A DNA stretch of 64,000 bases from Marchantia polymorpha subsp. ruderalis (Eukaryota > Streptophyta > Marchantiopsida > Marchantiales > Marchantiaceae): contig AP031358.1 in NCBI GenBank assembly GCA_037833965.1, positions 20,716,001 to 20,780,000 on the forward strand, read 5' to 3'. Position numbers and translations under genes: made by a program. Of this stretch, positions 5,138 to 56,931 are shown piece after piece; positions within the stretch are counted from its first letter, which is position 1; each line of letters starts with the position of its first letter. Under the pieces are notes generated by a model that saw nothing but the letters and a program-made list of their open reading frames with translations, was not told the origin of the DNA and did no database searches.

Positions 5138-5139
<2 letters not shown>

Positions 5140-25800: not shown

Positions 25801-25816
25801 TAGTGAAAATTCTTAC

Positions 25817-26280: not shown

Positions 26281-26314
26281 GTGTTAACATTCATCTTAGA
26301 ATAGGAACTACAGG

Positions 26315-27470: not shown

Positions 27471-27483
27471 TTTTTTCTACATA

Positions 27484-30572: not shown

Positions 30573-33500
30573 CTACAATGATACAAAATTTGGTAAATAT
30601 TGAGTTGCGCATTCTAAAAATTGAATTTATCTTTGAAGTAAATATGAAATTAAAATTCAAAAAACAAAATGGAACACTCCATTCATCGATCACAAGTTAC
30701 AATCAGAACTTGACGCATTCAATCTTCTCACAGTTAATATGAAATTACCTGGAAGCATGGAAAAAAAGCAGCAGTCAGTGACATTGTGACTCTATCTTGG
30801 CATTCAATCCGGATGCCAATAAACTGTGAAGTCTCGTCCCTAGTTTCCCAAGCCAATTGTTCAGCCGTCTGTTTTTCCGTGCTTGCATGCTGAGGTATGA
30901 AGGAAGGAATGAAATACCGAGAAGGATCTTCCACCTTGAAACACAAATCTAAATTGATAAGTATGTCTTCAAGCACCTTTGTGGCCACAACTCCCTGTCC
31001 ATGTGGATGCCTTCGCCGAAACTCCTCCATCAAACGAACAAAACCTATCTTGCTCACAAATCCGTCCTTGCTTATGTATGGGCTGCTTTCAAAGGACACA
31101 GACTTTTGGGGTCGAAAGTTTTGACCTAGAGCTACCAGCTTACCCAATAACGTATAAGTAAGCCAGTTGGGATCTACGATGATGTAATCAAGGTTGGGGA
31201 TAGATATGATGGATCCAACATCATTCAAATATGATATGATTGAGCTCGTTATCCTTTCACGATCAACTGAATGAGCTGAAGATGATGGAATAAATTCTGT
31301 CAGACTATCAGCACAGAATTCATGAAAGGTTTTGAATGACCAAAGGGGGGAAACTCTGTGTTCCTTGGTGTTTGTAAACAAGAGAGAGGAGAGGCGTGAA
31401 CACAATTGGGGAACCTGTGGTGACTTTTCACTCAACAAATTTTTTAAGATTTCAAAAATGTGCTTTTGGAGAGGAATAACTTCCTTCTTCTTCCGTGCAT
31501 TCAAATAAAATACCTCTTGGTGGAGATCCACAAAATTTGCGAATCTTTGGGTAAGTCTGCCTACTATGTCCTGAGCCCACTCCAAAGAGCTATATGGTAT
31601 TTTATCCTTGTGTGTAATAACAACAAGAACTTGTGGAAGACTATGTCCCGTGACCCTAGTGCCGGATGTGATGAAACTTAACCATTCCTCCAACTCAGTC
31701 TCGAAACAAGTCTCATCTTTCTCTGAAGAATCTTCTTCGCGAAAGGGACTATAAACAAATAGGAAAATACAAAAATTGTTGGATTGAGGGAAGATCACAT
31801 TTTGAAGGGTACGAAAAATGCCTTGTCCCGCAAGATCCCATATTGAGATTTGACTTTTGTCATCGTTTTGCAAGAATTCCACTTCAATTCCCTGTGTTCT
31901 CCACAACTCCTTCAATTTGTTGCCAATCCAACTTTTGCCTTTAACTATCCTCATCAGGGTTTGACGCACTTGAGTCTTGCCTGCAGAAGATGAATATAGA
32001 AAATCAAAAGAAATATAAATTGTTACTTGAGATATTTTTAAAAATTATTTGTTACCATATTATTTAATCATATTTATAGATAAATAGAATTGGAAAAAAA
32101 TCCAAATTTCACCTCAAAATTTAAAATTACAAAATCAGTTTTATTTATAATCTAAAACTTTGGGATATTAGCTTTCTTTTCTTTCTAGTTTTCTCAAATA
32201 TTTACACAGTTCCAAATACATGTTGATAAAAAAATTTAACTTTTTGACGATAATATTAAATTTTGAAAAGTTAAACCTTAGATTGCTAGTTTGAATACAT
32301 TGAGAAAAAAAACTAAGAACTCAGAGAGCACGTTACCTGCTAGAGGAGAGCCACATAAGAAGAGTCGGCTGGCTTTTGCATCTCCAAATGACAATTTTGC
32401 TTCTCTGAAGACAGACATGTACACTGCCCGCTTCTGGTTCTGCTTGAGCGCCTCTTCAATCTGCGCCGCCTTTCCGTCCTTATTCCATCTGGTTCTTTGC
32501 ACATTTATTTCCTGGAGAGTCAAGTTGACTTGGAGGACCCGCATCAGGTCCCTGAAGGACGCCTCCTTCTCCCCGTAGACTTCGACCCCATCCAAATCCA
32601 AGTGAGTGAGACTTGTGTTCCCTCGCAGGATCCCCATCAGGTCCCTGAACGCCTCTTCTTCTATTTTGGAGTTTATCAAAGACAAGTGAGTGAGACTTGT
32701 GTTCACTCGGAAGCACCGAAGGAGGTACTTCAAAACATCTTTCTGAACAGCTCGTAATTCCAGTTTCTTCAGGACTGAAGTCTCTCCAGTGTTTCCATTC
32801 ATTGACAGGATACCTTCTAATCCATCTTCGTTGCTACCTGAATACTCATCCATCAGCCTTATGTGGAAAGATTTTAGAGATTTGAGTTCCCCGCGCAGTA
32901 CCCTACCTAATAGGTTTAGTGATAACAAGTAATCACTATCAGGGAATAGACTTAGTTCCACTATGGGGTCCTTGACATCGGAGCTAGCAGCACCCGCAAG
33001 AGCTTCTATTGACTTCCAAACATCTTCTTCATCCTCTCCCCTAAATGACTGTACATTAATGTTGGTTGCTGTAGCATTGTCACGTATGCTTTCGCCGAGC
33101 TGCTGCCATTCCTCAGGACTCATCCGCAAGTCCCACAAATTCACTTCCTTCAATGATGGGTTGGAAGTAAGAAGTTGCCTCAAACAGTCTCCGAGTCCAT
33201 CCATACGGACCAGGATAAGACGTTCAATGGATCGGTTGCCATCGTCTCCGGCCAAAGCTTTCAGCAACAAGGCCGCTCCCCACTCTACCCCATTTAACGT
33301 CAATTCTTGCAAAGACGAGCTCTGGATCAAAGCCTGGGACAGCATTCCAACGGCCTCATCATCCGTTTTCGAACTCTCGCCTAATATCAACGTTTGTAAC
33401 AGAGGAGCACTGTTGATCATGTCAGCCACATGCTTCACCGCACTCAAGTCCTCCCACGCGCTCCACAAAACTAACCTCTTGAGTTTAGATTCGCAATTTC

Positions 33501-34065
33501 CTCGCAGTCCTGAGGCGAGATTCAACCAACATCTGGCACTCAATCCGCAACGCCATATTGTCAAGTCTGTCACGCTAGAGGAATTCAGAATTCTCCCCAG
33601 CTGTAAACTCCAGCTCTCCACTTCCGCATCTGAACTCCACTTGATCTCCTCAACGAATATCACTCGTAGATTGCTAGACATGAATCCTCTGAAAACTATC
33701 TCCCACTCCCTTGCCGTCAACCTCGATATATCTCCGCCACAAATAGCTTTCACGGTGAGATCCTCAAAGGTGTTGCAGTTGCCGATTGCCTCCAGCACTC
33801 GAAGGCGCACTTGGCTTCGCCACCCTGTGATCGTCGAAATCAATTCACTATCCGGAAAGAACTCTCGAAATTCTGGCTTGCTTAAATCGGGAAGCCTTAA
33901 AGGCTGGCCTTTGCCTTCCAGACGCCGTAGAAGGTCCTGGACAGCGGACGGAAGCTCCGGTTCCTCGTCTGTCTCCCTCACATCAGGCGTCTCTGGTTCC
34001 CCGTATACGGAGGCCATCGCATGTTCAGCAGCGTCACTGACGAGGGAAGCACCTGCACCTTCCAT
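29199..34065 (-). CDS. LRR-Roc-COR (ROCO) GTPase, TORNADO1-like, copy 1 (about 1444 aa, three exons)
   Basis: This is a large multidomain GTPase-type protein, likely cytoplasmic or membrane-associated. Exons are 34065-32337, 31980-30749 and 30572-29199. Introns are 356 bp (phase 1) and 176 bp (phase 0), both GT-AG. Joined in frame it gives about 1444 residues: LRR at about 90-550, Roc GTPase at about 565-760, COR at about 790 to 1100, coiled coil at about 1215-1260, and a Cys pair at 1429/1432. The P-loop GSPLAGKT is formed only after splicing of intron 1, which strongly confirms the gene model. Arabidopsis TORNADO1 is a 1380-residue LRR-Roc-COR protein, so length and order agree. No kinase domain follows COR, unlike animal LRRK. 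I chose the ATG at 34065; the frame is open further upstream but has no ATG there. A nearly identical copy lies at 56931-52068. Confidence 0.88.
30749..31980 (-). CDS. ROCO copy 1, exon 2: Roc GTPase and N-terminal COR
   Basis: The acceptor TTCTGCAG|GC opens the exon, which completes the P-loop with GKT (Lys578, Thr579). G3 is WDLAGQ at about 624-629, with the Gln usual in Roc domains. G4 is THKDK at about 699-703. COR begins near residue 790, with ISYLNDVGSIISI (about 825-837) and VDPNWLTYTLLGKLV (about 845-859). The exon ends FFPCFQ|GTAATT in phase 0. Against copy 2 I count about five residue changes in 411. All GTP-binding residues I can check are present, so the domain should bind nucleotide. 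Confidence 0.87.
32337..34065 (-). CDS. ROCO copy 1, exon 1: N terminus, LRR domain and first half of P-loop
   Basis: This exon encodes residues 1-577. After an acidic N terminus (DEEPELPS) comes a short helical region and then RI-type leucine-rich repeats of about 28 residues with a helix in each. Examples are SLQELTLNGVEW, SLKEVNLWDLRM, SLTHLSLINSKI and SLTHLDLDGVEV. The exon ends in RLFLCGSPLAG, the strand and first six residues of the GTPase P-loop. The donor reads GCAG|GTAACG. Compared with copy 2 it is the variable part of the gene: I count about 86 differences plus several small indels over 577 residues. Most lie in the xxLxLxx positions. Confidence 0.86.
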
Positions 34066-34848
34066 TCTCTCCTCCACTCTCACAGAGTAAGAAACGTTTG
34101 CTGCTTGACACGCGCGGGCGAAATGTACAAGAGTCACTTCCAAGAGGCTCTCTCCTCCTCGAGCCGCAAGCCCGGCTCACCAGAACAAAACTGAACTGTC
34201 CGTCGCAGAGTCACAACTTGTGTGTAGTGCGCGATGGTCACGAGAGTTCTTGCGCGGTGCTACAGGAGTGACACAGAGATTACTCCGAGCATCGGATCAA
34301 GAGCAATGATCACGAAAGGAGTAAGATTGAACAAAGTGGAAGTTGGAGGTTGCTCAAATTCACTGCAGGGGAGGACAGCCGATGTGAATCAAAATGATCG
34401 CAGACAACCAGGATTCTGGTTCCTAGAGCGTGTGCGTGAATCTATCCGGACGTAAACCTGTTGTGAACTGGAACAGAGAAATGTGTATGATGTGCACTTG
34501 TAACTGAACTCGAACTCAGTGGAAAAGTTGATAGCTCTGGAGGTGAATTTGAAATATACAGAAGACTGGTTCGTAGCAAAGATGGTGAGATGAGGACGCA
34601 GAATGTGTTGGAATGAATGGAAGCTCAGTATCTCAGACTTGAAGAACTTTGCATTGTGTAAAGCTGTAGGTACAATTGGAGTAAGAGAATGCGAATCTAG
34701 TTGCATCGAGACCCACGGGAAGATGGGTAGGTCGTGAAAAACACATGCAGCGTCTTCAATCAGATCTTGTCATCGAATCGTGTGAGAGATCGAGGTAACG
34801 ACAACATGCCAACACAACAAGCCTGCTCCTCCACCCTCGATGTGATTG
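34066..34848. repeat. Block delta' (unit 1): 5' flank of ROCO copy 1
   Basis: Upstream region of the intact gene, including an open stretch without ATG from 34066 to 34143. It probably holds the 5' UTR and promoter. I found no convincing TATA box. Nearly identical to 56932-57721. Confidence 0.55.
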
Positions 34849-37800
34849 GAAAATGTCCTTAGACGGTCAGGATAAATCTTGACTTTGTTGCGCAAGCTAA
34901 CAGGGAATTTGAGTCAATGATTTAAAGTGCTGATACACTCTCTGTCGTCAAGCAAGCAAGTGGATGTATTTTGACAACTGAGTGGCACATGGGTAGTCGA
35001 CTCGGAGGACAAATCTCGTGTTATACTTTTTCCTTGCTTTGAGGATCGGCACAGTATTCTACATTACTCTATACAACTCGTAGGTTCAGATAAAACAAAT
35101 CAACTTTTTGGGAGTTTGCAAAAATATATGTCGAATAACTGTGTACAGCGAATGCCACTACTCGAGGTTCTCAACTGCTCATGTAATTGTTCACTCTACC
35201 CAAGAAAGTGAAGATGCTAGGCTGGCCAATATTGATACTCCGTGTGGGACATTAGATAACAAGTACAACACACAGAGGACAATAACTCAAGTGCAGAGTC
35301 AATTAGAATCACGCCACCTCTCTTCTTTTTGAACAAGCAATGCTATCCGACCCTCAGGTCACTTGAATATGTAATACTCCTTCGTCTTCATCCTTTGGAT
35401 TCGGAATCTGATGCCCACGAGAAAGTAACGTTGAACTCAGAAATCTGTATATGACGTTTGGGGCTTTTTTAGTCCAACCGACGCGCATGCGTGCGAACGA
35501 AGATTTCGAAATTAAACTACTCCGTTTGTTGTCATCTTCTGCAAATCCTACACTTTACTCCAAGAGCATGAGCTGTCTACTAGATTGCTTTTCAGGTCTA
35601 TCGGGAATCATAAAGTATCCTGTCCGGCTACATTTTCGGGGTGAATTATCAACTTGCTGGTAGGAGAACAATAAAAATTACTCAGAATTGCAGATATTAG
35701 CACCAATTACTATATTGAGGGTTGATTAAAGATAGCTGTTCAGAATGCTCTGAAATACGTACAATCGCAAAACTCTGTTTCACCAGCAACTCGAAAGCAG
35801 ATCCGACTGATGTCTTGATGCTGGCTACTCTGGAATGCAGGTTACGGGGTCTTTGGAAAATTATTCACCATGTGGGTGAAATTACAGCGCTTTGACGCTG
35901 CTGAGTTGGATTAAATCCAATCTCGAAACTTGTCTCGTTGTAACAGCGAGAGAAGAAGTTTCGGTACAGCATCCTTGAGATTCCAGTGACTATTCAGTGT
36001 ACAAATAACTGTACCGCCTTGAATCACGTGGAGGTCGGAGATGCCCGCGATGAAAGAATCCAGGAACGAGTCACAGTCGATATCACGTCATGCACTAGTA
36101 TTCAGAGTTGTGGTGACTCATGTGCAACTCCAGTGCTGCACAAGTCTGAGGAGCTCTGCGTTCTCTAATCGGAACTTCATAAACCCGAATTGTCCATGAA
36201 CCCTATTTTTCCACACGGTTTCGGACCATGACCGTTGTCAGTTCGTCCCTTGGACTATCCATGTTGTGGCCAAATAGTTCACAAGACCCAGTCACTAAAA
36301 CGGTGGATTTGTATGCTCTTTGACTTAATCATTTCCGATGCTTTTGTCTAATTTGGGTAGTTTAGATTCACCCTTGCTTGCCTGAAAAACGAAAAGAAAA
36401 ATAGAAATTGGTTAGTTAGCTTGGCATACAACCATATTTTATCGGGGCATGCCATCGACTATAACAAACTTGCTACATTTTTTGAAGGAGAACCGGGAGT
36501 CAAGATATTATGTTGCTCATTTCTTCACTGGTTCAGTTAGGCTTCGGAGCAATTTCCAGCAAGAAGTTCATGGCATAAGCTTCACCTTCAGGATACTACC
36601 TTTTACCTGCATGGTCTTTCAGGATCATCTACAGGGAAGATTCCCAGGAAAGCAAAATCGACCCAACCCTGTGGAAAGACCGGGATGTTTACCATTTCCA
36701 CTTTCCCAGCTTGTGACCTTGTCCACAATAAGACCAGTGTGGATGAACTCCTGCAGTAAGTGGTGAACAATAAGTGGTAATGGGTGATTTCCTCCAAATA
36801 CTCAAGTGGGAAGTCCTTCCTCGAAGCTTAATAGTCATTTATACACATACTTTGTTATCGGCCAAGGGAGTGTAGACAGTGTGTTAATTTGAAAAAGATG
36901 GAACAAAGGTGGAATAACTTCGAGATAATTCAAGACCCAAAGTGGGGTTCATCTTGAATCGACTAGTTTTTCTAGCAATCGACTATGGCTAGTAAGCACA
37001 AGGTCGATGAGCCTATCATTAAACTTGTCAACATGTACGCTCTGATCAGAAATGTAATTCTAGGTAATAGAACATATCATTCCATTACCAAGAATTCCAT
37101 GTTTGATCAGTACTATTAGGTGATGGAACAGGTGCCACATAAACAGACAATGACAACACTCACCTAAGACACCATATGAAGCATCTATCAAAGAGCCTGT
37201 TGAGGATCAGTTCTAGGTGGATGGTGAGAATGTCACCACCACTTGTGGCCGAAAGCATGACTTTCGATAACGAGGGAGTCCAGGTGTCGAAGATTTTAGA
37301 AAATCCCTCCAAAGAGGAGAACAGGAGCTAACGATGGCTCTTCAGATGTCGACAGTCGAAGAATTATAGGCTTCAGATGAAGGTCACAAAGCACCTCCTG
37401 AAGCCATCCCATGTACTAACATAATGCCTGAAATGATAGAGAACATGAAGATGAACACTTTTTCCAACTAAGAACGTTGAATCCAAAGTATGTACGGTAG
37501 TCTCCTGGCTAAATACGCACTTCTCTCCTGGAAGGATAAGGAGTACTTTATCCGGTAGCTGCTTACTTACGCAAATCATTTCTTAATCGAAATAGGAGAA
37601 TTTGTCGAAATTGTCGGACAATGGCTAGGAGAACCTGGATCTAAATTAGCTCTATTTACATTTTATACTGGAAAAAATAATAATATATATATATATATAG
37701 ATAATCCCATATTCGTTACCATGAACGAATAACTATCGATATTCATTTCTCCTCTCTTCAGTTGAGTCATAGGAAAAATTTATCAACAATAATTTGTGAA

Positions 37801-38108
37801 TTTATGAGAGATTCATAAATATTTTTCAGAGATCTTTCAAGGTTTAAAAAAATGATAAAAATTATACAGAAACTACCTAAGCAAATCTTCAAGTTTATTA
37901 TGAAACAACATATAATGAGTCGAATCACTTCTTGATATTTTGATTAGATGGTAAACTCAAGGAAAACAAAAAGTAAACTTCTAAATGAGCGATGATGTGA
38001 TATAAGTTGAGCAACACATATCCTCCCTTTTACCGGAAGCATCGATATTTCTAGCAAAAGGCTCTGACTTGCGAGGAGGATGTTAACGAAGCAGCTTTCA
38101 AAAATGTT
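34849..38108. repeat. Block beta' (unit 1), noncoding
   Basis: Diverged copy of 2008-5549, including the 69-bp inverted repeat and the AT tract. No supportable gene. Confidence 0.7.
37042..37110. repeat. 69-bp imperfect inverted repeat, beta' of unit 1
   Basis: 31-nt arms with five mismatches and a 7-nt loop CATATCA. Confidence 0.75.
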
Positions 38109-39345
38109 TGAGACAAGAGGGAGCAAATCCAAAAAGAAACAATATTTAATGTCTCATGAAACTAAATAGAATTTTTTTCAATACTGTTTATTGTTTTATT
38201 GAGTTTAAAATGCGATATTTTTAGATTGTTGGCATGCTTATGGCCAATTTTCTATTCTGCCATAGGCCAGGACAAAAAGTATTGTATTTAGTTTATCGAC
38301 TTCAATTAAATCAATCACAAGGCGATGAGGGTTGCAAAAGGTGATGCAAAAAACTTCAGACTACCTCTTAATGTTTATTGCCAATATATTATATTTCAAA
38401 TTGAAAAAATATTGAGGCTCATTTATGAAAAATAATATGCATTCTTACCCGGTATGCCTACTTAACCTGGACTTTACTGTACCAGTTTCGAACCATGAGT
38501 AACTTGACTAGATGGAAAATATTCAACACATTGATAATGGTACTCTGATTGTAAGCGATGAAGCTGACATGGTTATCAAGTTTACAGCAATAGTGTTGCG
38601 AGTCTTGCTCTAAAGTGTGCACAATCATGTTGGCGATGGAGTTAAAGACAACATGCCAATATATCAAGCGTGTTCTTCCACTCATGCGTATAATTGGACA
38701 ATGTTTTTAGAAAGTAAGAAAAAATCTTGAATATCTTGTGCCAGCGAACAGAATACGTTAGTGAAGGGATCACTTTGCTGATACATTCTATGTAGGCAGC
38801 GTGACTACTGAGATTTCAAACGTCAGCTTGGATATATTCAAGCAAGTGGATCTATTTTGACAACTGAGTGGCACATGAGTAATCAGCTCGGATGAGAGAG
38901 CATGTTGTGCTTTTCCTTGCTTCTAAGATCAGTACAGGAGTCTACATTACTCTCCATATCTTATAGTTTCAAAACAAACTAATCAACTTTCTAGGAGTGT
39001 ACTCGACATAATGTCAAATAACTTTGTACAGAATATACGAATATTCGAGGTTCTCAAGTGCTGGAATGATTGTTCTCTTACCTCAGCTGTCAAGCAGGCG
39101 AGCGCATGCACATTTCTGATACCCAAATCTGGAGGTCTTCCCACCTCAAACATTAAACCAAAATCAGATTCCGTCCGTGCTAAGAGCACTCCTCCTTGTT
39201 TACCACTTACTATAGAGCACGATAGAACAAGCATGATACTTGCTAAGGTCAAAGTGTGGTTACCTGATAAGAATTTACGTGATTGTCCAGATTGTGATTA
39301 TGTTACCGAGGTAGGTGAAGATGCTCACTGGTGACTGAACTGAGT
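38109..39345. repeat. Block alpha (unit 1/2 junction), noncoding
   Basis: From 38402 on it matches 1-945 almost base for base. No supportable gene. Confidence 0.7.
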
Positions 39346-40408
39346 GGTTAACGTCGTGAACATGTGTTGTATACATAAGATGAAAAAAACTTCAGCTGAA
39401 GATCTTGTTTGAAGTCTAAATGATACGACAAACTGACATGGAAACACAAATATATGGTATACATCATCTTAAATGTAACAAGTCACATACTGCAACTTAT
39501 GCAATCGTATGTTCAATCTTGAAAAATGAAAAAATTATGTCCATTACTTAATTGAAAAGATCGTTGAAACGCAATCGTGTTATTTCATGTTTTTAGTTCT
39601 CTCTCTCTTGTGTAAAGCATGTCACATATATTTTTGTTACAAAATTAGAAGCTGTGATTAAATAACCGTGTATCAAATGACTATATTGATTTGCATCCTT
39701 ATTTGATGATACCTCAAATTTCAAAATGTTCAGTAGTAAACAAGCTCGAGTAATTTAAATCTCACAAGAGAAAAAATAATGAAAGTTACACTTTCACATT
39801 ACTCAAGAAGATTCTTAATTGCTTAAAACATTGACTCTACAATCTTTAGTTTGTCTTAATACTTTTTGAACTTTTGTGGATTTGATTCTTCGGATTCTCT
39901 TGATTCGAGTGTCCATTGCTGAACTTGTTTGTTTTTTGGTACATCACAAAACCAAAATACTGTCCCACAAACAAAGAAATTTCAGGGAAGGTTCTTTTTT
40001 GACTGTAAGACAAAAAGGAAAAAAGAACTGACGAAAAGATAAAAAAACTGACAAGGCTTTGTCATTCAGAAGAAAGTTAATATATTGGATTTCTTTTGCA
40101 TGGACTCCGGGATGATCTCCGAGGGAAAGGACTCGAGTAACGAGTCAGAGTCCAGCAGTCGATATCACCTCATGCAGTAGTATTCAAAGTTGTGCTGACT
40201 CATATGCAACTCGAGTTCACCGTGAGCCACTTGCACAAGTCGGAGGACCTCGGCATCGGCGTTCTCGAATCAAAACTTTCTAAATCTTGTGGAATGATCG
40301 CCACTGTTTCGAAGTGTCCATGAACCTTATTTTTCATACGGATGCACACCATATCCTGTGTCAGGTTGTTCCTGGACTATCCCTGTTGTGGCCAAATAGT
40401 CCATTGGA
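39346..40408. repeat. Block epsilon (unit 2), noncoding
   Basis: Nearly identical to 951-2007. Nothing else seen. Confidence 0.6.
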
Positions 40409-43400: not shown

Positions 43401-43774
43401 TCATTTCTCCTCTCTTCAGCTGAGTCATAGGAAAAATTTATCAACAATAATTTGTGAATTTATGAGAGATTCATAAATATTTTTCAGAGATCTTTCAAGG
43501 TTTAAAAAAATGATAAAAATTATACAGAAACTACCTAAGCAAATCTTCAAGTTTATTATGAAACAACTTATAATGAGTGGACTCACTTCTTGATATTTTG
43601 ATTAGATTGTAAATTCAAAGAAAACAAAAAGTAAACTTCTAAATGAGTGATGATATGATATAAGTAGAGCAACACATATCCTCCCTTTTACCGGAAGCAT
43701 CGATATTTCCAGTAAAACTCTCTAACTTGCGAGGAGGATATTAATGAAGCAGCTATAAAAAATGTTTGAGACAA
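40409..43774. repeat. Block beta (unit 2) with the empty retrotransposon site
   Basis: Counterpart of 2008-5554. It ends at GACAA (43770-43774), the uninterrupted equivalent of the GATAA target. It lacks the unit 1 hairpin, the 41-bp duplication and the extra 0.4-kb copy. Confidence 0.7.
42696..42764. repeat. 69-bp imperfect inverted repeat, beta of unit 2
   Basis: 31-nt arms with four mismatches and a 7-nt loop CATAACA. Confidence 0.75.
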
Positions 43775-45546: not shown

Positions 45547-45566
45547 CAAGGATAGCTTGGTCCACT

Positions 45567-45836
45567 TCATGACCGTGCTTCTGATACATCATTAATATTC
45601 TGCGTGATGATACTGTACACAATATCGGAGTCGAGTTGAACGAGAATCGCGCTCACTTTGATATTCAGCAGACGATGTTCTCCATTCTTTGATATAATAT
45701 TCTCGACCTTAAAGTCAAATTGCTGGAAGAGTCTTTGTAACTGAACGTCCACACGCAGTCCAACTGCAAAAGCATGCGTGCTACGAAATACCGCATTTAT
45801 ACACGTCACAGTTCTGAGCGTGCTGGCGCTTACCAT
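45567..45836 (-). CDS. Unrecognised 89-codon ORF, likely gene remnant (unit 2)
   Basis: Protein-identical to 22881-23150. Kept at low confidence for the reasons given there. Confidence 0.25.
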   Translation of the reverse strand: MVSASTLRTVTCINAVFRSTHAFAVGLRVDVQLQRLFQQFDFKVENIISKNGEHRLLNIKVSAILVQLDSDIVYSIITQNINDVSEARS

Positions 45837-45928
45837 TGTGTTGAGATCAGGGCCAGCACAAGCATGTTATCAGCGTCTTTCACAGATATACCTCAGCGAG
45901 TCAACCATGACCTGATACATGGCTTACT

Positions 45929-46436
45929 AGAACTGAAATGCTGGGATGTGGATGATTCTTTCTGCATGTTCAACAGGTTCAAGGAGGGCAGCAATGCGGA
46001 CTCCTCAAATACCTTCTAGTAGAAAGATAAAGATGGGAAGCATCGAGACAAGGTAAGAGACATTCGGAACAAAATATTGGATAACACATCAACAGTTTTT
46101 CTAATGGCCCTATATTTCTGGATGCAAGCTTTATTATCATCACGGCTCGAGTCAATAGTAGATGACCTGAATCAAGAACTGCTGATCCAGTCTCTGAGAT
46201 TCTGAAGTTTATGTACACCATTCTCTTCGTCCAGATAGAAAGAATTTCTCTCGTCTAAGCGAAACAGGATATGTTTCAGAACAATACAGAAGAATTTCTG
46301 TCTGTTTCGAGAGTCTTGATTTCTTAAGTTTCCGCTTCGTCTCGCATATGATGCATGAAGCCTTCATTGATCCATTCTTTACGCTCCACTTCGCCCCTAA
46401 AATTCGGAGCGAGTATGACTTTCACTGGTATGGAGC
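45929..46436. repeat. Block zeta, left copy (unit 2)
   Basis: Counterpart of 23243-23750, nearly identical. 46437-47376 beyond it has no feature I can support. Confidence 0.6.
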
Positions 46437-47376
46437 ACGGGCGGGTCCCTTCATACGAACACTATTCGGGCGGACGAACTGTTGAGTAAGTCGATAGAGT
46501 TGAGCGAGAGGTGTTGGGTATGGAGACGGAGCATCAGAGAGATCTTGTGTTTCCCGCGTCCTCTCTCTAGTCTTCAATTCGAACCCTCGCTCTTCTTGCT
46601 TTCGGCTTTCTTCGCTTAGTTTCAGGAGCCAAATGCGCGGAGAAGTGAAGATGTCAACGCTGCAGCATGCTGAGCAACGATGAGCGATTTTGGATCGCCG
46701 TCAATATTATCTTTGCTGTGAATTGTGGTGGCGAATTGCTCCGGCCCATCACTGTAAGTCAATCCTAAAGTTTAGTAAGGCGATGTCAAGTAATTTCTTA
46801 CTGAGAATGCTGTCATACCAATCTCCGAGCACTCAATTGAAAATTCTGGTAGACATAGAAGTGACTGTTACTGTGAAAGTGTTCCTGCTTCAGGATCCTT
46901 TATTTACATTTCGCGATCGGAAGCTTTACAATTGAGGTGATGTTGAAACAAGGCTCTGATTTGCGAAATACAAAATTACCTGTATTTGAAAAACCCAAAA
47001 ATACTTCACTTAGGCTTTGATTCACCGATCATCACTAAGGATATAAAGTATCAATGTCTTATGCTGGTGAATGATTATTAGTTTTGTGAGCATGCAATCA
47101 ATTAGACATCGCTGGATAGACCATATCGTATGGCCTGTGAGGGTGAGCTTTGACATGTACCTTCTTACGCGACAGGAATTAGCTTTCAAGACTGAAGGAA
47201 ACTGTCGGTGCGTTGGGGCTTCATACCAATCAGAGCATAGTTCATTCATTTGGCTTTGTAACTCTCGAATACATGTTCGTTTTATGAACCCCCAGATTTA
47301 CAATTGATGGTCTCGAGCAAGCGGTTGAGCGTAGAGGGTGTGATATCAGGGCTTTGTTTATATCTCAGCATAAATC

Positions 47377-48153
47377 TCAATTCACGAACTGATAGAAGGA
47401 GAATATACAAGTAGAGACACCAGTCGCAACGTGATTAAAATCAGGCATACCGAAAACTAGAGAGCCCTGCATTCGACAATTGCAAGAAGAGAAGTTTTCT
47501 GTCTCGCATTTAGGAAGCGTACTGTCTGAGCTGTGTTGATGGCTAGTCATCACAGCAAGAAGACTACACAGAAAGCCACCAGATTGGTAGGCAGGGTCAA
47601 TCAGTATCCCAGAATCAGAAAACATTTTGAAAATCCTACGTACGGATCCATCTTGCATTCCTTCGATAATCCTTATTTGCCTTGGAATTATTAACCCTGC
47701 TGACGATACTGCTGCGACATATTTCAAGCCTTGTGAACTTCACGTAAACTAGAAAAGCACCGTATGCTAAAATGCTAAACTGGCTCAGTACAAGTAATCG
47801 GCGTACATCTTTGTTTCGTTCTGGAATCCCCTCTAGAATACTTTTCTGGGTTGCACTCAACATGCGATTATTCACAGCTTGATGCAGAGAATGTTCTATG
47901 AAGCCTTGGACGGTAGGCGAAAAATTAATAGAGATATTCCGTGAACAATTTTCTGTTTTTTCTGGCTGCATCTTTCCATGGTCTCTCGTCTTGATGGCAT
48001 GTCCCTCACTACTCTCAGGTAGGAGTTGGGCGAAGCCAAAGCTAGGAAGTGCGCATTGGTGCGCAACAGTTTGACGTTAATCAACGACCCAATGACCTGA
48101 TCTCGAGAGACATCCTTAATTGACTTGGTATCTTTGCTGCAGTTAATCCACAT
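47377..48153 (-). pseudogene. Unrecognised gene remnant, unit 2 (longer version)
   Basis: Three overlapping minus-strand frames seem to follow one another: 48153-47896 (INCSKDTKSIKDVSRDQ), 47971-47740 (VQGFIEHSLHQAVNN, then the hydrophobic LLVLSQFSILAYGAFLVYV), and 47727-47377 (KYVAAVSSAGLIIP). Two hydrophobic stretches could be membrane helices. The frame changes suggest frameshifts in a dead gene or unrecognised introns. No family is recognised. Confidence 0.35.
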
Positions 48154-48639
48154 TAAAACGTAAAATCAACCCAACCCAGCCAAAACATCCTGCCAGTCTG
48201 AAAATGCTTTGAATAGAAAGTAGGAGAAAGGATGCTTTTACGTGAAAGTGGGTAATTCTCCATACGATGTTCTTCTACTCGTCGTAGAAGCCCACCGAGT
48301 AAGATTGTTACATCTCAGATTACAGCAACGAGGAGCAGGCCAGCGCTCTTCAAAATGCTAATTTGAGATTCTTGGTAAATGATAAGAACGAGAGGGTTCA
48401 CCAGTCGCAACCAAGATTCTGAGAAGAATCCACTCGTGTGGATCGGCTTTGAATCAACACGAGTGGATAATTATGACAAATCGACTATCATAATACTTCG
48501 TGTGTGTATCGAAGTGTCGATCAGTCACATCGCCTAATGTAATCAACAGCATCCTTCTAAGAGTGATCCGTTGCATGAATAGATCAGAAAGAAACTACCA
48601 TTTCCACCAGAAGCAACGTTGACTCTTCTGAAAATATGG

Positions 48640-48679
48640 AAGCCACCCCCGCCGGGCTTACGGCCGGCAGGGGTGGCTT
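48640..48679. repeat. GC-rich 16-bp-arm palindrome
   Basis: AAGCCACCCCCGCCGG and its complement (one mismatch) flank an 8-nt loop GCTTACGG. It stands out in AT-rich DNA. In unit 1 the left arm and loop are present in inverted form (25777-25800). Confidence 0.85.
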
Positions 48680-48695
48680 TAGTGAAAATTCTTAC

Positions 48696-49150
48696 TGAAA
48701 CTGAAATGCTGGGATGCCGATGATTCTTTATGCATGTTCGAGGAGGCAGCGTTCTCAGACTCCTCGGATACCTTCAAGTAGAAAGATAGAGATGGGAAGA
48801 ATCGAGACAGGGACGAGACATTCGGAACAAATATAGGATATCACATCAACATTTTTACAAATGGTCTTTCATTTCTGGATTAGCAGATGCGAGCTTTATT
48901 ATCATCAGGCTGGTGTCAATAGTAGATGACCTGGATCAAAAACTGCTCATCCAGTCTCAGGGATTTCCGTGAAACAATTCTCTTCGTCCAGATATAAAGA
49001 TTTCTCTCATCAAAGCAAAACAAAAGCAGAATTTATGTCACTTTTGAGAGTCTTGATTTCTAAAGTTCCCACTTCGTGCAGCTGAAGGTTCCATATTTTG
49101 ATAATTTACGCTGCACTTCGCCCCTGCATTTCGTGGCGAGTATGGCTTTT
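48696..49150. repeat. Block zeta, right copy (unit 2)
   Basis: Counterpart of 25817-26280. Noncoding. Confidence 0.6.
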
Positions 49151-49192
49151 ACCAGTGTGTATTAACATTCATCTTAGAAAAGGAACTACAGG

Positions 49193-49650
49193 TGTTACGC
49201 TAGAGGTAATCGGAATTCTCCCCAGCTGTAAACTCAAGTTCTACACTTCCACATCTGAACTCCAACTTCATGTACGACCTTCAACTATTATCTCTCGTAG
49301 AACGGTGCTAGACCTGAGTCCGCTCAAAACTACCTCCCACTCGCGTGCCTTCAAGGACGATAAATTCACCGCCACACATTTTTCACACTTCCAGCTGCCG
49401 ATTGCGTCCAGCACTCGAAGGTGCACTTGGATTCGGCACTCTATGATGGTCGAGAACACGCTCGGAAATCACTTCCGAAATTCTGGTCCGCTTAATGTGG
49501 GAAGCTACCTGAGAGTCTCGACTTTGTCTTCCAGACGCCATGTAAGGTCCTGGACAGCGGAGGGAAGCTCCGGTTCCTTGTCTCGGAGTCAATTCTACGT
49601 GTCGCGAGCTCAGCTGCGTCACTGACGATGGACGCATCTCAACCTTCCAT
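49193..49650 (-). pseudogene. 5' fragment of a dead ROCO gene, copy 2
   Basis: This is the tandem copy of the relic at 26315-26781, with the same TGA at codon 4 and the same left breakpoint. A nine-base difference lies near 49396, where copy 1 has an extra AACTTGCAG-type segment. The shared stop shows the gene died before the 22.86 kb unit was duplicated. Confidence 0.8.
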
Positions 49651-50340
49651 TCTCTCCTCCACTCTCACAGAGGAAGAAACGTTCGCTGCTTGGCATGCGC
49701 GGTGGCATACAAGAGTCCATGTCCTCGATCCGCAAGCTCGCCTCTCCCGGAGATAACTTGACTTCCCGTCGCATTGTGATAGCATGTGCGTGCTGGGCGC
49801 ACATGCACTCTGCATGGGGCGCTACACATAATCAGATTGGGACACGTCTATCTATCATCAGGGTGTGATGATAGATAATCAGATAAAGAGAAATAACTTT
49901 GAACGCAAAACGATTGTGCAAAGTAGAAACAGTGAAGTGCAAGCGATCTGGATCAAAAATAGCGGTGAGAATCAGGATTCTGGTTTGAAGAAAATTCGTA
50001 GAGCATGTACAAAGAGAAGCTCACGGAAGCGAATATTTATTGTGAGCTCAGAAGGAAAGAGGTGTTTGATGTGCAGCTTATTCTGATATCAAAAAGAATA
50101 CTTTGTAGCAAAGATGATGTGATGTGGAAGTACATTGGCATAGAATGCATCGCATCGCAGAGTACACTGCGATTGTGTAAAACTGCATGTACAATTGGAC
50201 CGGGAAAAGGAGAACCTTGCTGCATGAAGACCTACGGGAAGACAGACCCTACGATATGTAGCGCCTAGAAAACATATATCATCCCCTTCCCTTCCTGCGA
50301 TCGTCAGGCGAGGATCAGACACACAATCGATCGGGATATT
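49651..50340. repeat. Block delta (unit 2): 5' flank of the dead ROCO copy
   Basis: Counterpart of 26782-27470. Noncoding. Confidence 0.55.
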
Positions 50341-50352
50341 TTTTTCTACATA

Positions 50353-50559
50353 CTAGATTTCAACGCGCTCTAGTACGTAGCCAGGCACGAGATTCTTCAG
50401 CTCAAGGACTGGAGCACTTACTGGTACACCAGGCTCAATGAGATTCCGGAAAAGCAGTCCGCATCGTTCTTTCGTGGCCATCTCAGTGGGAGTGGAGCCC
50501 ACTTCAAAAGTCAGCTTATCAAAAGCGAACCGTCCGAGCTTTCGTTTGTGAACCGGCAT
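50353..50559 (-). CDS. Unrecognised 68-codon ORF (unit 2)
   Basis: Protein-identical to 27484-27690. The one base change seen (A to G near 50526) is silent. 50560-51160 beyond it holds nothing else I can support. Confidence 0.3.
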   Translation of the reverse strand: MPVHKRKLGRFAFDKLTFEVGSTPTEMATKERCGLLFRNLIEPGVPVSAPVLELKNLVPGYVLERVEI

Positions 50560-51160
50560 GTGTGCTCAGATCCCCTGAGCTTCGTTCAGCTGTCAAAGTA
50601 ATAACTGGAAAATTCTCTAGACGCCAAGTCTGTTAGACAGAGAGCATAATATCTAACTGAGATGAAGCAGAGTCCACAAAAGCGCGTCACTCATGGATCT
50701 TCTTTGCTATTTCCTAAAGATTGATGAAATTCAGAGATATCTTCACCGGCTGAAAGTTGATCTCTAACCATCATATCTAAATGTATTATGAATTTTCTCT
50801 AATATAATAGAACATGTATACATCGTGAAAATGAAAACGTTAGTGTTAACATGACTCCATTGTGTACCATTTGATGTTGACCTCCAAGTTTTTTCGTTCA
50901 ATTTCTCGGTGTTAGACCTGGAAAACTTACTCAATATATTTTTTATAAGAATCCCTCAGTATGAAATTTATTGATTGGGGATTTACCATTAACCAGTTCA
51001 AATCTCACCACATCATCAATCTTGCCACTAAAAACAGGCCTGCTGCTGTTTAAGCAGATCTGCACCACTTAACAAGGCACGCCCATTGCATGAATTTCCA
51101 TTATCAGCGAGCAAAATGTCCCAAAAAGCGTTTTGTGGAAGACTATCCCATACCTGATCT

Positions 51161-52067
51161 CAGTGTTAGCACATCTAAGAACTCATAGATTTCTTCTACC
51201 ACAGCCTTGAGATCAATCCCTCTTAATGAACTGCCTTGCTCAGAGAATTTGCAGAAGACAACCAAGCTGCCATTAAATTACTCTTGACAACAGTTGGTAA
51301 AAAAGAAAATAATATGTTTTGATTGTCTCATGAATTATTTGGACCATCCAGTTCAGAGTAAGGTTCATCATAGATTACAGATGGAGCGCAAAAAGCTACC
51401 TAGCTGCAGTCACGTATCTAAGAAGTCATTCGGATTCTTACAACTTGACCCTCTTTTTCACAGACTCCGCAACATCCTCAGCGTAAATCTACGTTGTCTC
51501 TCTAATCACATGCTAGTCATTTGACTCAAGAGGTTTGCACAACCGTATTTGTCTCTTCAAGAGCCTGCCGCTCGAAGAGTGCACATCGAGTGTTACAAAG
51601 GCCAGATGAGGAAAGCAGACTCCAGCACATCTTAAACACTGCATGCGGTCTGAACATGCAGTGTTCACTAGTGTTTAAACAAGGCTACCAACTGTACAAA
51701 AATAACATAATCTGATCTTTATTCCTGTCAATTCTACAGTTGTTGAACCCTTATCATTCAGAACAATCATTCAAGGATTTGTATCAAAATTCAAAGCTGA
51801 CAACCCAACGTTTAATTGAAGGGATTTCAACAGGGTGAGACTTGCAACAAGCCGCACTGAGAACTTTGTCCTCAACATGTAATTTTGATAGGTAGCCAAA
51901 ACTTATCTTCTTTAGAAACATAACTGCGCCATTAACATGATTGCAAAGATTATGAAAGACTTTTACAAGTGAAAACTTTAAGGAAGATGTTGCAGAGGTT
52001 CAAATTGCATGAGGGTCTAAACATATGCTTGTAAATTGCATAGTGACATTCTAATCCCTTCAAATTC
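51161..52067. repeat. Block gamma' (unit 2) and 3' flank of ROCO copy 2
   Basis: Counterpart of 28291-29198. Noncoding; probably includes the 3' UTR. Confidence 0.55.
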
Positions 52068-53441
52068 CTAATATGTCAAAATGCCAGAACTAAGACCTTT
52101 ATGCATGCACTCATCGCACACCCATGCATGCCCAAAACTCACGTATTTCACCTGATACAACTTGAATTTTGCCGAATAGCGATCTCGAAGCTGAGGCGCA
52201 AGAGTTTGCTGAATCCTCAGCCATGCTTCTTTTAGCTCCATGCTTTCCCCACCTTTTAGAACTGCCCTACGATCACGATCGCTAATGCTGTCTAGTTTAA
52301 CAATATCTAATTCTAAATCTTTCCAGTCCGGAATCATTGAGCTCAAATTGAGGGTCCTTTCCAGTCCTGCCTTCACAGCGTAATACACTAGTTTGCATGA
52401 GATTTCAATAGTTTTTCGAAGCCACGTGAGATTCTCCTTATCCAAGCGTATGTTCAAACCTTCTTGACCTTTGACTTTGTGAACCCTAGTCGGCGACTCA
52501 CACATCAAGTGTAAGCGAATGGTTGTCCCGGCATGCAGAAATGCACTTATCATATAGAGAAGACCAACTTCGTTTGTCACGTAAGGTCTCTTGGGAGTTC
52601 TCGCCTCCTGAAGCGATTTAGGATACTGAATCTTCCTGTCCACTTTAGACATGAAGTCGCTCAACCTTGACTGGAATTCTTGATAAAAAGTGAGTATCTG
52701 TCCCATCTTCATATCCACTCTCTCGAGCACACTCTCCACTGATCTCAATCTCTCATCCAGGTTAACAAAGTTGGACCTATCAAGTCGGTCTGAATTACTC
52801 GAATTGCCAATCCTGTTCTCACTTTCAGTGTAAGTTTGATCCAAATCATTGCTCACGCTTATGAAGGCTTGCCGAAATGATTCCGATTGTTGAACGCACT
52901 TCTGTCGGATCTCATTCACAACCGCTTCCACGTCGCTCTCCCGCAGCAAATCCCTAGCTCTTTCTGATATTGTCGGTGTGCGCCTGTCAATTGGAGGCCA
53001 AGAGTGCTCATAGTTCAACAAATCTTGCTCCACCAAGTGCAACCTATCCGGAGGAATATCCTCAAGTTTCTCATTCATGCGACGAATGAAGTTTGATTTG
53101 AGCTCCTCGATCAGAATGGTTCCTCTGAGATCAATCGGAACCAGCATCTCCACGCAACGTGTTTGTATCACACCCAGCACTAACGCCACCCCCGGACAGC
53201 CTTTGTTTGATGCACAGAATGATATCAACTCCTCAACAATATACTTCCCAACGTATTGCACAGCCTCCGACCTTGATTTATGCTTCGAGCGTAACACCAG
53301 AACATCCACGTACTTGTGAGACAATCCTTGCTCGACGTAGATCTCATACCCATCTAGGGAAAGTTGTAGATAATGTCGAGAGCAATTCACATTCTCCTTG
53401 AGAACATGCTTCTTGGATATCAACTTGCGTCTAATGAACAT
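52068..53441 (-). CDS. ROCO copy 2, exon 3: C-terminal COR, coiled coil and tail
   Basis: Same boundaries as copy 1 exon 3. About eight residue changes were seen, for example I to H in NCSRIYLQL and I to M in FIRRINEKL. The terminal Cys pair in VCDECMHKG is kept. The exon ends at a TAG stop. Confidence 0.85.
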   Translation of the reverse strand: MFIRRKLISKKHVLKENVNCSRHYLQLSLDGYEIYVEQGLSHKYVDVLVLRSKHKSRSEAVQYVGKYIVEELISFCASNKGCPGVALVLGVIQTRCVEMLVPIDLRGTILIEELKSNFIRRMNEKLEDIPPDRLHLVEQDLLNYEHSWPPIDRRTPTISERARDLLRESDVEAVVNEIRQKCVQQSESFRQAFISVSNDLDQTYTESENRIGNSSNSDRLDRSNFVNLDERLRSVESVLERVDMKMGQILTFYQEFQSRLSDFMSKVDRKIQYPKSLQEARTPKRPYVTNEVGLLYMISAFLHAGTTIRLHLMCESPTRVHKVKGQEGLNIRLDKENLTWLRKTIEISCKLVYYAVKAGLERTLNLSSMIPDWKDLELDIVKLDSISDRDRRAVLKGGESMELKEAWLRIQQTLAPQLRDRYSAKFKLYQVKYVSFGHAWVCDECMHKGLSSGILTY

Positions 53442-56400
53442 CTACAATGATACAAAATTTGGTAAATATTGAGTTGCGCATTCTAAAAATTGAATTTATC
53501 TTTGAAGTAAATATGAAATTAAAATTCAAAAAACGAAATGGAACACTCCATTCATCGATCACAAGTTACAATCAGAACTTGACGCATTCAATCTTCTCAC
53601 AGTTAATATGAAATTACCTGGAAGCATGGAAAAAAAGCAGCGGTCAGTGACATTGTGACTCTATCTTGGCATTCAATCCGGATGCCAACAAACTGTGAAG
53701 TCTCGTCCCTAGTTTCCCAAGCCAATTGTTCAGCCGTCTGTTTTTCCGTGCTTGCATGCTGAGGTATGAAGGAAGGGATGAAATACCGAGAAGGATCTTC
53801 CACCTTGAAACACAAATCTAAATTGATAAGTATGTCTTCAAGCACCTTTGTGGCCACAACTCCCTGTCCATGTGGATGCCTTCGCCGAAACTCCTCCATC
53901 AAACGAACAAAACCGATCTTGCTCACAAATCCGTCCTTGCTTATGTATGGGCTGCTTTCAAAGGACACAGACTTTTGGGGTCGAAAGTTTTGACCTAGAG
54001 CTACCAGCTTACCCAATAACGTATAAGTAAGCCAGTTGGGATCTACGATGATGTAATCAAGGTTGGGGATAGATATGATGGATCCAACATCATTCAAATA
54101 TGATATGATTGAGCTCGTTATCCTTTCACGATCAACTGAATGAGCTGAAGATGATGGAATAAATTCTGTCAGACTATCAGCACAGAATTCATGAAAGGTT
54201 TGGGATGACCAAAGGGGGGAAACTCTGTGTTCCTTGGTGTTTGTAAACAAGAGAGAGGAGAGGCGTGAACACAATTGGGGAACCTGTGGTGACTTTTCAC
54301 TCAACAAATTTTTTAAGATTTCAAAAATGTGCTTTTTGAGAGGAATAACTTCCTTCTTCTTCCGTGCATTCAAATAAAATACCTCTTGGTGGAGATCCAC
54401 AAAATTTGCGAATCTTTGGGTAAGTCTGCCTACTATGTCCTGAGCCCACTCCAAAGAGCTATATGGTACTTTATCCTTGTGTGTAATAACAACAAGAACT
54501 TGTGGAAGACTATGTCCCGTGACCCTAGTGCCGGATGTGATGAAACTTAACCATTCCTCCAACTCAGTCTCGAAACAAGTCTCATCTTTCTCTGAAGAAT
54601 CTTCTTCGCGAAAGGGACTATAAACAAATAGGAAAATACAAAAATTGTTGGATTGAGGGAAGATCACATTTTGAAGGGTACGAAAAATGCCTTGTCCCGC
54701 AAGATCCCATATTGAGATTTGACTTTTGTCATCGTTTTGCAAGAATTCCACTTCAATTCCCTGTGTTCTCCACAACTCCTTCAATTTGTTGCCAATCCAA
54801 CTTTTGCCTTTAACTATCCTCATCAGGGTTTGACGCACTTGAGTCTTGCCTGCAGAAGATGAATATTGAAAATCAAAAGAAATATAAATTGTTACTTGAG
54901 ATATTTTTAAAAATTATTTGTTACCATATTATTTAATCATATTTATAGATAAATAGAATTGGAAAAAAATCCAAATTTCACCTCAAAATTTAAAATTATA
55001 AAATCAGTTTTATTTATAATCTAAAACTTTGGGATATTAGCTTTCTTTTCTTTCTAGTTTTCTCAAATATTTACACAGTTCCAAATACATGTTGATAAAA
55101 AAATTTAACCTTTTGACGATAATATTAAATTTTGAAAAGTTAAACCTTAGATTGCTAGTTTGAATACATTGAGAAAAAAAACTAAGATCTCAGAGAGCAC
55201 GTTACCTGCTAGAGGAGAGCCACATAAGAAGAGTCGGCCGGCTTTTGCATCTCCAAATGACAATTTTGCTTCTCTGAAGACAGACATGTACACTGCCCGC
55301 TTCTGGTTCTGCTTGAGCGCCTCTTCAATCTGCGCCGCCTTTCCTTCCTCCTCCCATCTGGTTCCTTTCACATTTATTTCCTGGATAGTCAAGTTGACTT
55401 GCAGGACCCCCATCAGGTCCCTGAAGGACGCCTCCTTCTCCCCTAAGAATTCGACCCCACCCAAATCCAAGTGAGTGAGACTTGTGTTCCCTCGCAGGAT
55501 CCCCATCAGGTCCCTGAACGCCTCTTCTTCTATTTTGGTTAACATCAAAGACAAGTGAGTGAGACTTGTGTTCACTCGCAAGCACCGAAGAAGGTCCTTC
55601 AAAACAATGCTAGTTTCTAATGTCAGTTTCTTCAGGACTGAAGTCTCTCCAGTGGTTCCATTCATTGACAGGATACCTTCTAATCCATCTTCGTAGCTAC
55701 CTGAATACCCATACTTCCGCCTTATGTGGAAAGATTTTAGAGATTTGAGTTCCCCGCGCAGTACCCTACCTAATAGGTTTAGTGATAACAACCAATTATG
55801 GTCACTATCAGGGAAGAGACTTAGTACCACTATGGGGTCCTTGACATCGGAGCTAGCAGCACCCGCAAGAGCTTCTATTGACTTCCAATCATCATCTTCT
55901 TCATGAAACCCTATATAAATGTTGGTTGCTGTAGCATTGTCACGTATGCCTTCGCCGAGCTGCTGCCATTCCTCAGGACTCATCCGCAAGTGTCCCAAGA
56001 TCACTTCCTTCAATGATGGGTTGGAAGAAAGAACTTGCCTCAAACAGTCTCCGAGTCCATCCATTTTATACAGGTGAAGACGTTCAATGGATCGGTTGCC
56101 ATCGTCTCCGGCCAAAGCTTTCAGCAACAAGGCCGCTCCCCACTCCACCTTCTCTAACGTCAATTTTTGCAAAGACGAGCTGTGGATCAAAGCCTGGGAC
56201 AGCATTCCAACGGCCTCATCATCCATTTTCGAAATCTCGTCTGATCTCAACCTTTGTAATAGAGGAGCATTGTTGATCATTTCAGCCACATGCTTCACCG
56301 CTCTCGAGTCCTCCCACGCGTTCCGCAAAACTAAACTCTGGAGTTTAGATTCGCAATTTCCTCGCAGTCCTGAGGCGAGATTCAACCAACATCTGGCACT

Positions 56401-56931
56401 CAATTCGCAACCCTCCATTATCAATTTTGTCGCGCTAGAGGAATTCAGAATTCTCCCCAGCTGTAAACTCCAGCTCTCCACTTCCGCATCTGAACTCCAC
56501 TTCATCTCCTCAACGTATATCGCTCGTAGATTGGTGCTAGACATGAATCCTCTGAAAACTATCTCCCACTCGCTTGCCGTCAACCTCGATATATCTCCGC
56601 CACAAATAACTCCCAGTCGGAGATACTCAAAGGTGTTGCAGTTGCCGATTGCCTCCAGCACTCGAAGGCGCACTTGGCTTCGCCACCCTGTGATCGTCGA
56701 AATCAATTCACCATCCGGAAAGAACTCTCGTAATTCTGGCTTGCTTACATCGGGAACTACCCACAAAGGCTGGCCTTTGCCTTCCAGACGCCGTAGAAGG
56801 GCCTGGACAGCGGACGGAAGCTCCGGTTCCTCGTCTGTCTCCCTCACATCAGGTTTCTCTGGTTCCCCGTATACGGAGGCCATCGCATGTTCAGCAGCGT
56901 CACTGACGAGGGAAGCACCTGCACCTTCCAT
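52068..56931 (-). CDS. LRR-Roc-COR (ROCO) GTPase, TORNADO1-like, copy 2 (about 1443 aa, three exons)
   Basis: This is the tandem paralogue of 29199-34065, at an offset of 22,869 bp. Exons are 56931-55206, 54849-53618 and 53441-52068, with the same GT-AG sites and phases. The introns are nearly identical to copy 1, with about three changes seen in intron 1. P-loop GSPLAG|KT, WDLAGQ and THKDK are all intact, so both copies look functional. The LRR exon differs strongly from copy 1 while the Roc-COR exons do not. The gene keeps the same orientation and flanks as copy 1. Confidence 0.88.
53618..54849 (-). CDS. ROCO copy 2, exon 2: Roc GTPase and N-terminal COR
   Basis: Same boundaries and motifs as copy 1 exon 2. 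Changes seen are conservative or surface-type: I to V before PYSSLEW, Q to K before KHIFEIL, FK to SQ in the LWSFKTF segment, and I to V in FIGIRI. The exon is complete. Confidence 0.86.
55206..56931 (-). CDS. ROCO copy 2, exon 1: LRR domain
   Basis: This exon encodes residues 1-576. The repeat framework is the same as in copy 1, but the exposed strand residues differ. Examples: LIMEGCELS replaces LTIWRCGLS, LVLRNAWED replaces LVLWSAWED, LHLYKMDGL replaces LILVRMDGL, VILGHLRMS replaces VNLWDLRMS, and LSLMLTKIEE replaces LSLINSKIEE. Small in-frame indels (1-3 codons) occur near residues 57, 130, 365 and 390. No stop or frameshift was seen. Confidence 0.86.

Follow-up and report, generated by a model that had tools for sequence, protein, structure and literature searches.

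Among described systems, the closest precedent for the genes reported here is the leucine-rich repeat (LRR)-ROCO family of brown algae. In the accessible part of its description (PMC11378527, which also cites Zambounis 2012), this is an expanded family of LRR-Roc-COR order with positive selection at concave LRR sites, for which an immune role has been proposed, and its members respond to several stresses (Teng 2024, PMC11378527). Each algal LRR forms its own 72-bp phase-2 exon, whole exons shuffle, and 9–47 genes are present per species (PMC11378527). Here, we describe two tandem LRR-ROCO genes on chromosome 8 of the liverwort Marchantia polymorpha subsp. ruderalis Tak-2, gene A (MPTK2_8g16140, protein P0001) and gene B (MPTK2_8g16167, protein P0002), which lie in a 64-kb stretch of DNA, hereafter the window, at positions 20716001–20780000 of a 24.2-Mb contig (C9). 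Judged from their sequences, both genes are, on balance, probably members of a large clustered LRR-Roc-COR family acting as polymorphic intracellular recognition receptors, in which a conserved Roc-COR switch is combined with an LRR diversified by selection and by short-tract exchange.

The Marchantia genes resemble the algal genes in domain order, in the expansion of the family, in the proposed immune role and in positive selection at concave LRR sites, which is seen here as an exon-wide excess of non-synonymous change with changes concentrated on the strands. In contrast to the algal genes, all LRRs are contained in one 1.73 kb exon, within which the exchange takes place, and the route of diversification therefore differs from exon shuffling. 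The family is also large, with at least 70 places matching exon 1, although this compares different lineages. Similar to hypervariable plant nucleotide-binding LRR receptors (NLRs), as outlined in part of the literature on them, the Marchantia genes occur in clusters, are hypervariable within the species and combine a variable LRR with a conserved nucleotide-binding switch. However, this switch is NB-ARC in NLRs, whereas it is a ROCO GTPase in genes A and B, and a Pfam search of P0001 and P0002 detected no NB-ARC at E 0.1. Angiosperm TORNADO 1, a developmental gene, likewise encodes a plant LRR-Roc-COR protein. The label TORNADO1-like, given to genes A and B in a preliminary description of the window, holds as distant homology only: angiosperm TORNADO 1 proteins are reached at 24–27% identity, and only from a single-copy liverwort relative (P0104).

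An N-terminal LRR of the type found in plant and prokaryote ROCO proteins is present, and a Roc GTPase domain can be assigned from sequence, with marginal Pfam scores of 27.3 and 27 bits for P0001 and P0002 (cut-off 27) that fall just below the cut-off when exon 2 is scored alone (26.6 and 26.5 bits). COR-A scores 19.4 bits, below its cut-off of 35.3. The presence of a COR domain after Roc is indicated by the predicted fold of the paralogue P0029 (62% identical to P0001) and not by A or B themselves; the top matches of this fold are LRRK1, LRRK2 and Methanosarcina barkeri RocCOR. The Roc-COR fold of this paralogue is predicted to be like that of LRRK1, LRRK2 and Methanosarcina Roco2, but Pfam matched no kinase domain in P0001 or P0002. 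When P0001 was compared with PDB sequences, the only matches were two flagellar LRR chains, with no Roco chain at E 0.01. No paper on ROCO or Roc-COR GTPases of Marchantia was found in the open-access library searched (subscription papers and preprints being outside its scope), and open-access papers on TORNADO in Marchantia or on LRR ROCOs in Physcomitrella, judged by title and the start of the abstract, included none on this family.

Divergence and selection in the LRR exon

Between genes A and B, 87 of 571 aligned residues of exon 1 differ, in addition to 5 indels, compared to 5 of 411 in exon 2 and 8 of 457 in exon 3. This agrees with the earlier residue counts (about 86/577, 5/411 and 8/457) and with the small in-frame indels reported for exon 1. 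At the nucleotide level, exon 1 diverges by 7.2%, while the values are 0.65% and 0.80% for exons 2 and 3, 1.1% and 0.6% for introns 1 and 2, and 0.5% and 0.7% for the 5' and 3' flanks. The contrast between a hypervariable LRR exon and a near-frozen Roc-COR in tandem genes is real. When introns and near flanks are pooled, 24 of their 3510 sites are different (0.7%), and near identity spans about 26.5 to 34.8 kb, exon 1 excepted. The statement that introns and flanks are nearly identical is therefore accurate for the introns and near flanks but not farther out, where the divergence is 4–5% at 25.8–26.5 kb and 0–15% per 250-base window upstream, at 34.8–38.8 kb.

The exon 1 changes cluster at beta-strand positions, as had been noticed by eye: 40 of 104 residues are changed in the 7-residue strand windows compared to 38 of 319 elsewhere in the LRR (Fisher p 1e-8). 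None of the 15 strand modules is identical in the two genes; the scaffold between the strands is conserved. By the counting method, the non-synonymous divergence of exon 1 (dN 0.090) exceeds the synonymous divergence (dS 0.035; p 0.00035), and pairwise codon likelihood yields an omega (dN/dS) of 3.37 (p 1.4e-5). Masking of 3 or 6 codons around gaps, or the use of codons with single-nucleotide changes only, gives an omega of 2.3–2.8 (p 0.001–0.006), and realignment with three MAFFT settings gave an identical outcome. Exon 1 carries 112 non-synonymous differences, where about 9 are expected at the surrounding neutral rate. For exons 2 and 3 together, omega between A and B is 0.77 by counting and 0.95 by maximum likelihood, from few changes (14 and 5).

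The same tendency is found in other family members. Among six gene pairs on C9, omega of exon 1 is 1.35–3.37 and significant in four, and that of exons 2 and 3 is 0.47–0.99 and significantly below 1 in four. In 434 of 435 pairs among 30 genes, omega is higher for exon 1 than for the part of exon 2 compared, and among the 14 closest pairs listed that of exon 1 is above 1 in 13; exon 3 was comparable in 208 of 231 pairs in the counting analysis. The diversifying selection proposed in the preliminary description is thus supported, as an excess of dN over dS is seen in exon 1 but not in Roc-COR. Of the outcomes expected there from a codon test, the excess is found for exon 1 as a whole, with the changes concentrated on the strands, and an omega below 1 for Roc-COR is significant in four of the six C9 pairs, whereas A and B have too few changes to show it.

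Family structure, exchange and variation between accessions

The searched genome comprises 241 Mb in 9 contigs, and the female Tak-2 assembly is given as 9 chromosomes and 242 Mb in the accessible part of PMC13078153. Exon 1 has 130 matches, which merge into at least 70 places on 8 of the 9 contigs; since 70 of 417 candidates were scored, this number is a lower bound. Of these places, 48 are clustered with neighbors less than 500 kb apart, in line with the earlier suggestion of an array of variable genes in a non-seed plant. For comparison, NB-ARC has 66 matches from 76 candidates, including several fragments at one place on contig C4.

The strength of the contrast differs between groups. Four variable chromosome 8 pairs show a ratio of LRR to Roc-COR divergence of 12–15. 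In Riccia fluitans, for which 15 of 18 P-loop proteins and 76 pairs passed the length filter, the contrast is milder, with 15–31% in the LRR and 4–11% in Roc-COR among the 25 closest pairs, and the median ratio of 1.76 is only slightly above the 1.42 of 13 dispersed M. polymorpha paralogues (78 pairs). The ratio is 1.3–1.4 for the single-copy liverwort ROCO 5g17320 (3 pairs), and in angiosperm TORNADO 1 the LRR is hardly accelerated (median 1.17; 15 pairs of 6 proteins, taken from 10 TORNADO-1-like matches, P0148–P0157). Because saturation lowers the ratio of divergent pairs, this control does not settle the matter by itself. The pattern is absent from TORNADO 1, from the single-copy liverwort ROCO and from one tandem pair (L025/L026).

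The composition of exon 1 was compared among 11 proteins from both accessions, Tak-1 and Tak-2, which fall into three Roc-COR clades, with P0005 kept outside the clades. Within clades, pairs share on average 1.17 (I), 0.83 (II) and 0.67 (III) of 15 strand modules exactly, whereas pairs between clades I and II share 1.62. Roc-COR differs by 1–3% within these two clades and by about 14% in the two I–II pairs measured. Linkage within exon 1 decays over the length of one to two LRR repeats: 10–13% of site pairs are incompatible under 40 bases, 16% at 40–80, 26% at 80–160 and 30% beyond, compared to 0–7% at all distances in exons 2 and 3. The overall level of incompatibility is 0.28 in exon 1 versus 0.06 and 0.03 in exons 2 and 3, and the pairwise homoplasy index (PHI) test is significant for exon 1 with a 10-site window (0/300 permutations). 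Both the PHI and the linkage analysis exclude L034, whose exons 2 and 3 are broken. We read this pattern as exchange in stretches of one to two LRR repeats. Exon 1 acts as a pool that recombines and is under selection, uncoupled from Roc-COR.

Variation between accessions was assessed from 10 Tak-1/Tak-2 locus-tag pairs, found among the 120 proteins listed out of 156. Two of these pairs, 2g21700 and 3g01435, diverge throughout and were not counted as allelic because the Tak-2 protein sits on another chromosome. In five of the eight same-chromosome pairs (8g16140, 16167, 16155, 15893 and 15075), the LRR differs by 13.8–17.6%, Roc-COR by 1.0–1.9% and exon 3 by 1.0–2.2%, so at the protein level the LRR is hypervariable within the species, as judged from two accessions only. 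The protein database was clustered at 90% identity, by which near-identical alleles are merged, and the visible pairs are therefore biased towards variable ones.

Several further observations concern the family and its chromosome 8 cluster. For Tak-1, the cluster is listed with six close relatives (16135, 16140, 16155, 16163, 16167 and 16169), and for Tak-2 with three (16140, 16155 and 16167) in addition to the broken L034; this is probably copy-number variation, subject to the clustering of the protein database. The tags of P0090 (MPTK2_3g01435) and P0087 (MPTK2_2g21700) name chromosomes 3 and 2, but the contigs that carry these Tak-2 proteins have the lengths of chromosomes 2 and 8, due to either lift-over naming or relocated copies. 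Two genes are mosaics of exons: L044 (contig C3) is 82% like gene A in exon 3 but 59% and 64% in exons 1 and 2, and L043 (contig C2) is 80% like gene A in exon 2 but 63% and 61% in exons 1 and 3. On contig C5, fourteen exon 1 places, several with identical scores, lie within 0.9 Mb (16.84–17.73 Mb), probably as a result of recent segmental duplication.

Receptor function and alternative explanations

The LRR sensor has a ligand-binding shape, it is attached to a conserved GTPase, its surface is under selection and short tracts are exchanged. In the proposed mechanism, the ribonuclease-inhibitor-like LRR would bind a variable partner via residues on and just after the parallel beta-strands, and binding would be relayed to the conserved Roc-COR GTPase acting as the switch. 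Diversity would arise from diversifying selection at the strand residues and from paralogues repeatedly exchanging short tracts, each spanning one to two LRR repeats, by which the LRR exon would become a pool common to sister clades while Roc-COR keeps its own clade history. The proteins are presumably intracellular, and their ligand may stem from a pathogen or be a host protein that is guarded. Both the switch mechanism and signaling through Roc-COR upon binding of a variable partner are likewise proposed. The evolution of the family is best read as NLR-like, on a ROCO switch, and a receptor and immune role would fit this pattern. More tentatively, and with less confidence than we place in the receptor function itself, liverworts may possess, in addition to NLRs, another polymorphic receptor system of equal or greater size that is ROCO-based, whose LRR is built by continual exchange of one- to two-repeat tracts and which gives each accession private binding surfaces on a common switch. 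Bryophyte immunity is mostly framed in terms of NLRs and surface kinases, as in the introduction of PMC12890914. If the proposal is correct, the at least 70 LRR-ROCO places would constitute an unexamined recognition repertoire in an editable model plant, it would suggest that land plants and brown algae have separately made variable receptors from the same GTPase scaffold, and a functional handle on plant ROCO proteins would become available.

Several observations weigh against this interpretation. Omega of exon 1 is above 1 in only 30 of the 435 pairs, recombination can inflate site tests, and exons 2 and 3 have changed too little between A and B to demonstrate constraint. Exon 1 is conserved (dN 0.003, dS 0.014) in the fourteenth close pair, the tandem genes L025/L026 on C5, and between accessions the contrast is weaker in 7g10710 and 8g15140 (14–17% in the LRR, 4–20% elsewhere), while the 4g13541 pair is nearly identical throughout. 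With respect to exchange, the PHI test of exon 1 is not significant at 40 sites (p 0.11), and nominal signals also occur in exon 2 (p 0.24 and 0.007) and exon 3 (p 0.037 and 0.017). Clade III shares few modules with clades I (0.25) and II (0.08), so the pool is limited: it is common to clades I and II, and clade III takes hardly any part in it. The exon 1 tree mixes the clades, but approximately unbiased (AU) tests do not reject the Roc-COR clades in exon 1 (p 0.257 and 0.253), and exchange is therefore argued from the dS contrasts, module sharing and linkage decay. Overall, the original proposal of variable recognition receptors is supported in part: selection, strand clustering and the size of the clustered family agree with it, whereas its scope is narrowed, as not every recent pair is hypervariable and exon 1 is partly imported.

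The same receptors could instead serve plant or gamete self/non-self recognition, or bind diverse endogenous ligands rather than pathogen products. The sequence pattern alone cannot distinguish ligands, and the high difference between two accessions suits allorecognition equally well. Indirectly, the spread over 8 of 9 contigs does not suggest a single mating or recognition locus, and the stress responses of brown-algal ROCOs (PMC11378527, accessible part) likewise speak against this alternative, which we consider unlikely.

An explanation by gene conversion alone, in which an older paralogue supplied exon 1 and its sites were under no selection, is less likely still. Between A and B, silent sites of exon 1 have diverged by 3.4% compared to 0.7% outside (13.2/391 versus 29/4069, p 3.6e-5, where the neutral set comprises introns, flanks and the silent sites of exons 2 and 3), a five-fold elevation that likewise tells against selection as the sole cause; because dS is raised too, part of the exon 1 divergence is imported. 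The order is reversed between gene A and L031 (MPTK2_8g16155), from a neighboring clade, for which exon 1 dS (0.084) is lower than that of exons 2 and 3 (0.159; p 0.002), and exon 1 therefore has a different history from the rest of the gene. Furthermore, 162 of 313 ten-residue words that separate A from B are found in other family proteins for A, and 130 of 313 for B. However, dN is 2.3–3.4 times dS, with an excess that persists after masking, the scaffold between the strands is conserved, and for gene A, the one gene examined in this way, 10 of the 15 strand modules are absent from every other protein of the set. As about half of the words occur elsewhere but most of these modules do not, both exchange and newly arisen change play a part, unless sampling missed the donors. 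The scenario named in advance as refuting selection, an older imported exon 1 with dS as high as dN, is thus partly true, as dS is raised and exon 1 was apparently exchanged between two Roc-COR clades, but dN exceeds dS. Import of exon 1 would then act alongside selection and not instead of it.

A local hypermutation process that hits strand codons is very improbable. It would explain why strand windows often contain codons changed at two or three sites and why, in a 7-gene clade, conserved codons differ silently 2.5 times more within these windows (a value reached by 7 of 427 label shifts), the latter also being at odds with selection as the only process. However, for leucine codons across 30 genes, diversity is not significantly higher at conserved strand positions than elsewhere (p 0.13), and selection with short conversion tracts also accounts for linked silent change. 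Relaxed constraint, pseudogenes or assembly error are hardly credible explanations: L034 has a broken exon 2 and one of 30 exon 1 frames contains a stop, but the frames of A and B are intact, the GTPase motifs (P-loop, DLAG and G4-like) are retained in 100, 92 and 101 of 103 family proteins, omega is above 1 and not near it, and proteins from the separate Tak-1 assembly show the same pattern.

Gene models and surroundings in the window

Both genes are encoded on the minus strand by three exons with intact reading frames in the spliced models. The models agree with the deposited proteins in length (1444 and 1443 residues for A and B) and are identical in exon 1 of each and throughout P0001. In gene A, exon 1 (32337..34065) encodes an N-terminal tail and the hypervariable 15-strand LRR solenoid, as based on the spliced model, the P0001 match, the fold and the omega against gene B; the LRR block used for the strand analysis comprises residues 98–525 (32491..33774). 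Intron 1 (31981..32336) is a GT-AG intron of phase 1 that differs from gene B at 4 of 356 sites; in both genes, it interrupts the second glycine codon of the P-loop GSPLAGKT, and intron 2 is of phase 0. The near-frozen exon 2 (30749..31980) encodes the Roc GTPase and COR-A, as assigned by Pfam and the A/B comparison, and the equally near-frozen exon 3 (29199..30572) encodes the C-terminal part, for which the Pfam library used gave no match. In gene B, the corresponding features are the hypervariable LRR exon 1 (55206..56931; spliced model and P0002 match), with an approximate LRR block from the alignment to gene A (55360..56637), exon 2 with Roc and COR-A (53618..54849; spliced model and Pfam), and exon 3 with the C-terminal part (52068..53441; spliced model). 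Spread by retrocopying was set aside for A and B because their introns are retained.

The tandem duplication unit containing gene A (25773..38957) is 96.3% identical to its partner containing gene B (48652–61828). Downstream of gene A, a fragment related to the 5' part of exon 1 (26315..26714, minus strand; 76% identity) contains stops in the translated frame and is probably a relic; its partner in the second unit lies downstream of gene B (49193..49583, minus strand). Rfam and tRNA scans of the window gave no match. A nested array of non-ROCO units of about 5.6 kb (60–99% identity), with no frames of 200 codons or more, lies between and around the ROCO genes (1–5551, 21082–25061, 34845–48000 and 57720–64000). 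The region 5554–21082 is occupied by a long terminal repeat (LTR) retrotransposon with unusually long repeats, in which each arm contains an 863-codon open frame that has no Pfam match, and gag and Ty3-type pol frames lie between the arms. The arms are 4870 bases long and 99.96% identical, and the element looks like a recent insertion.

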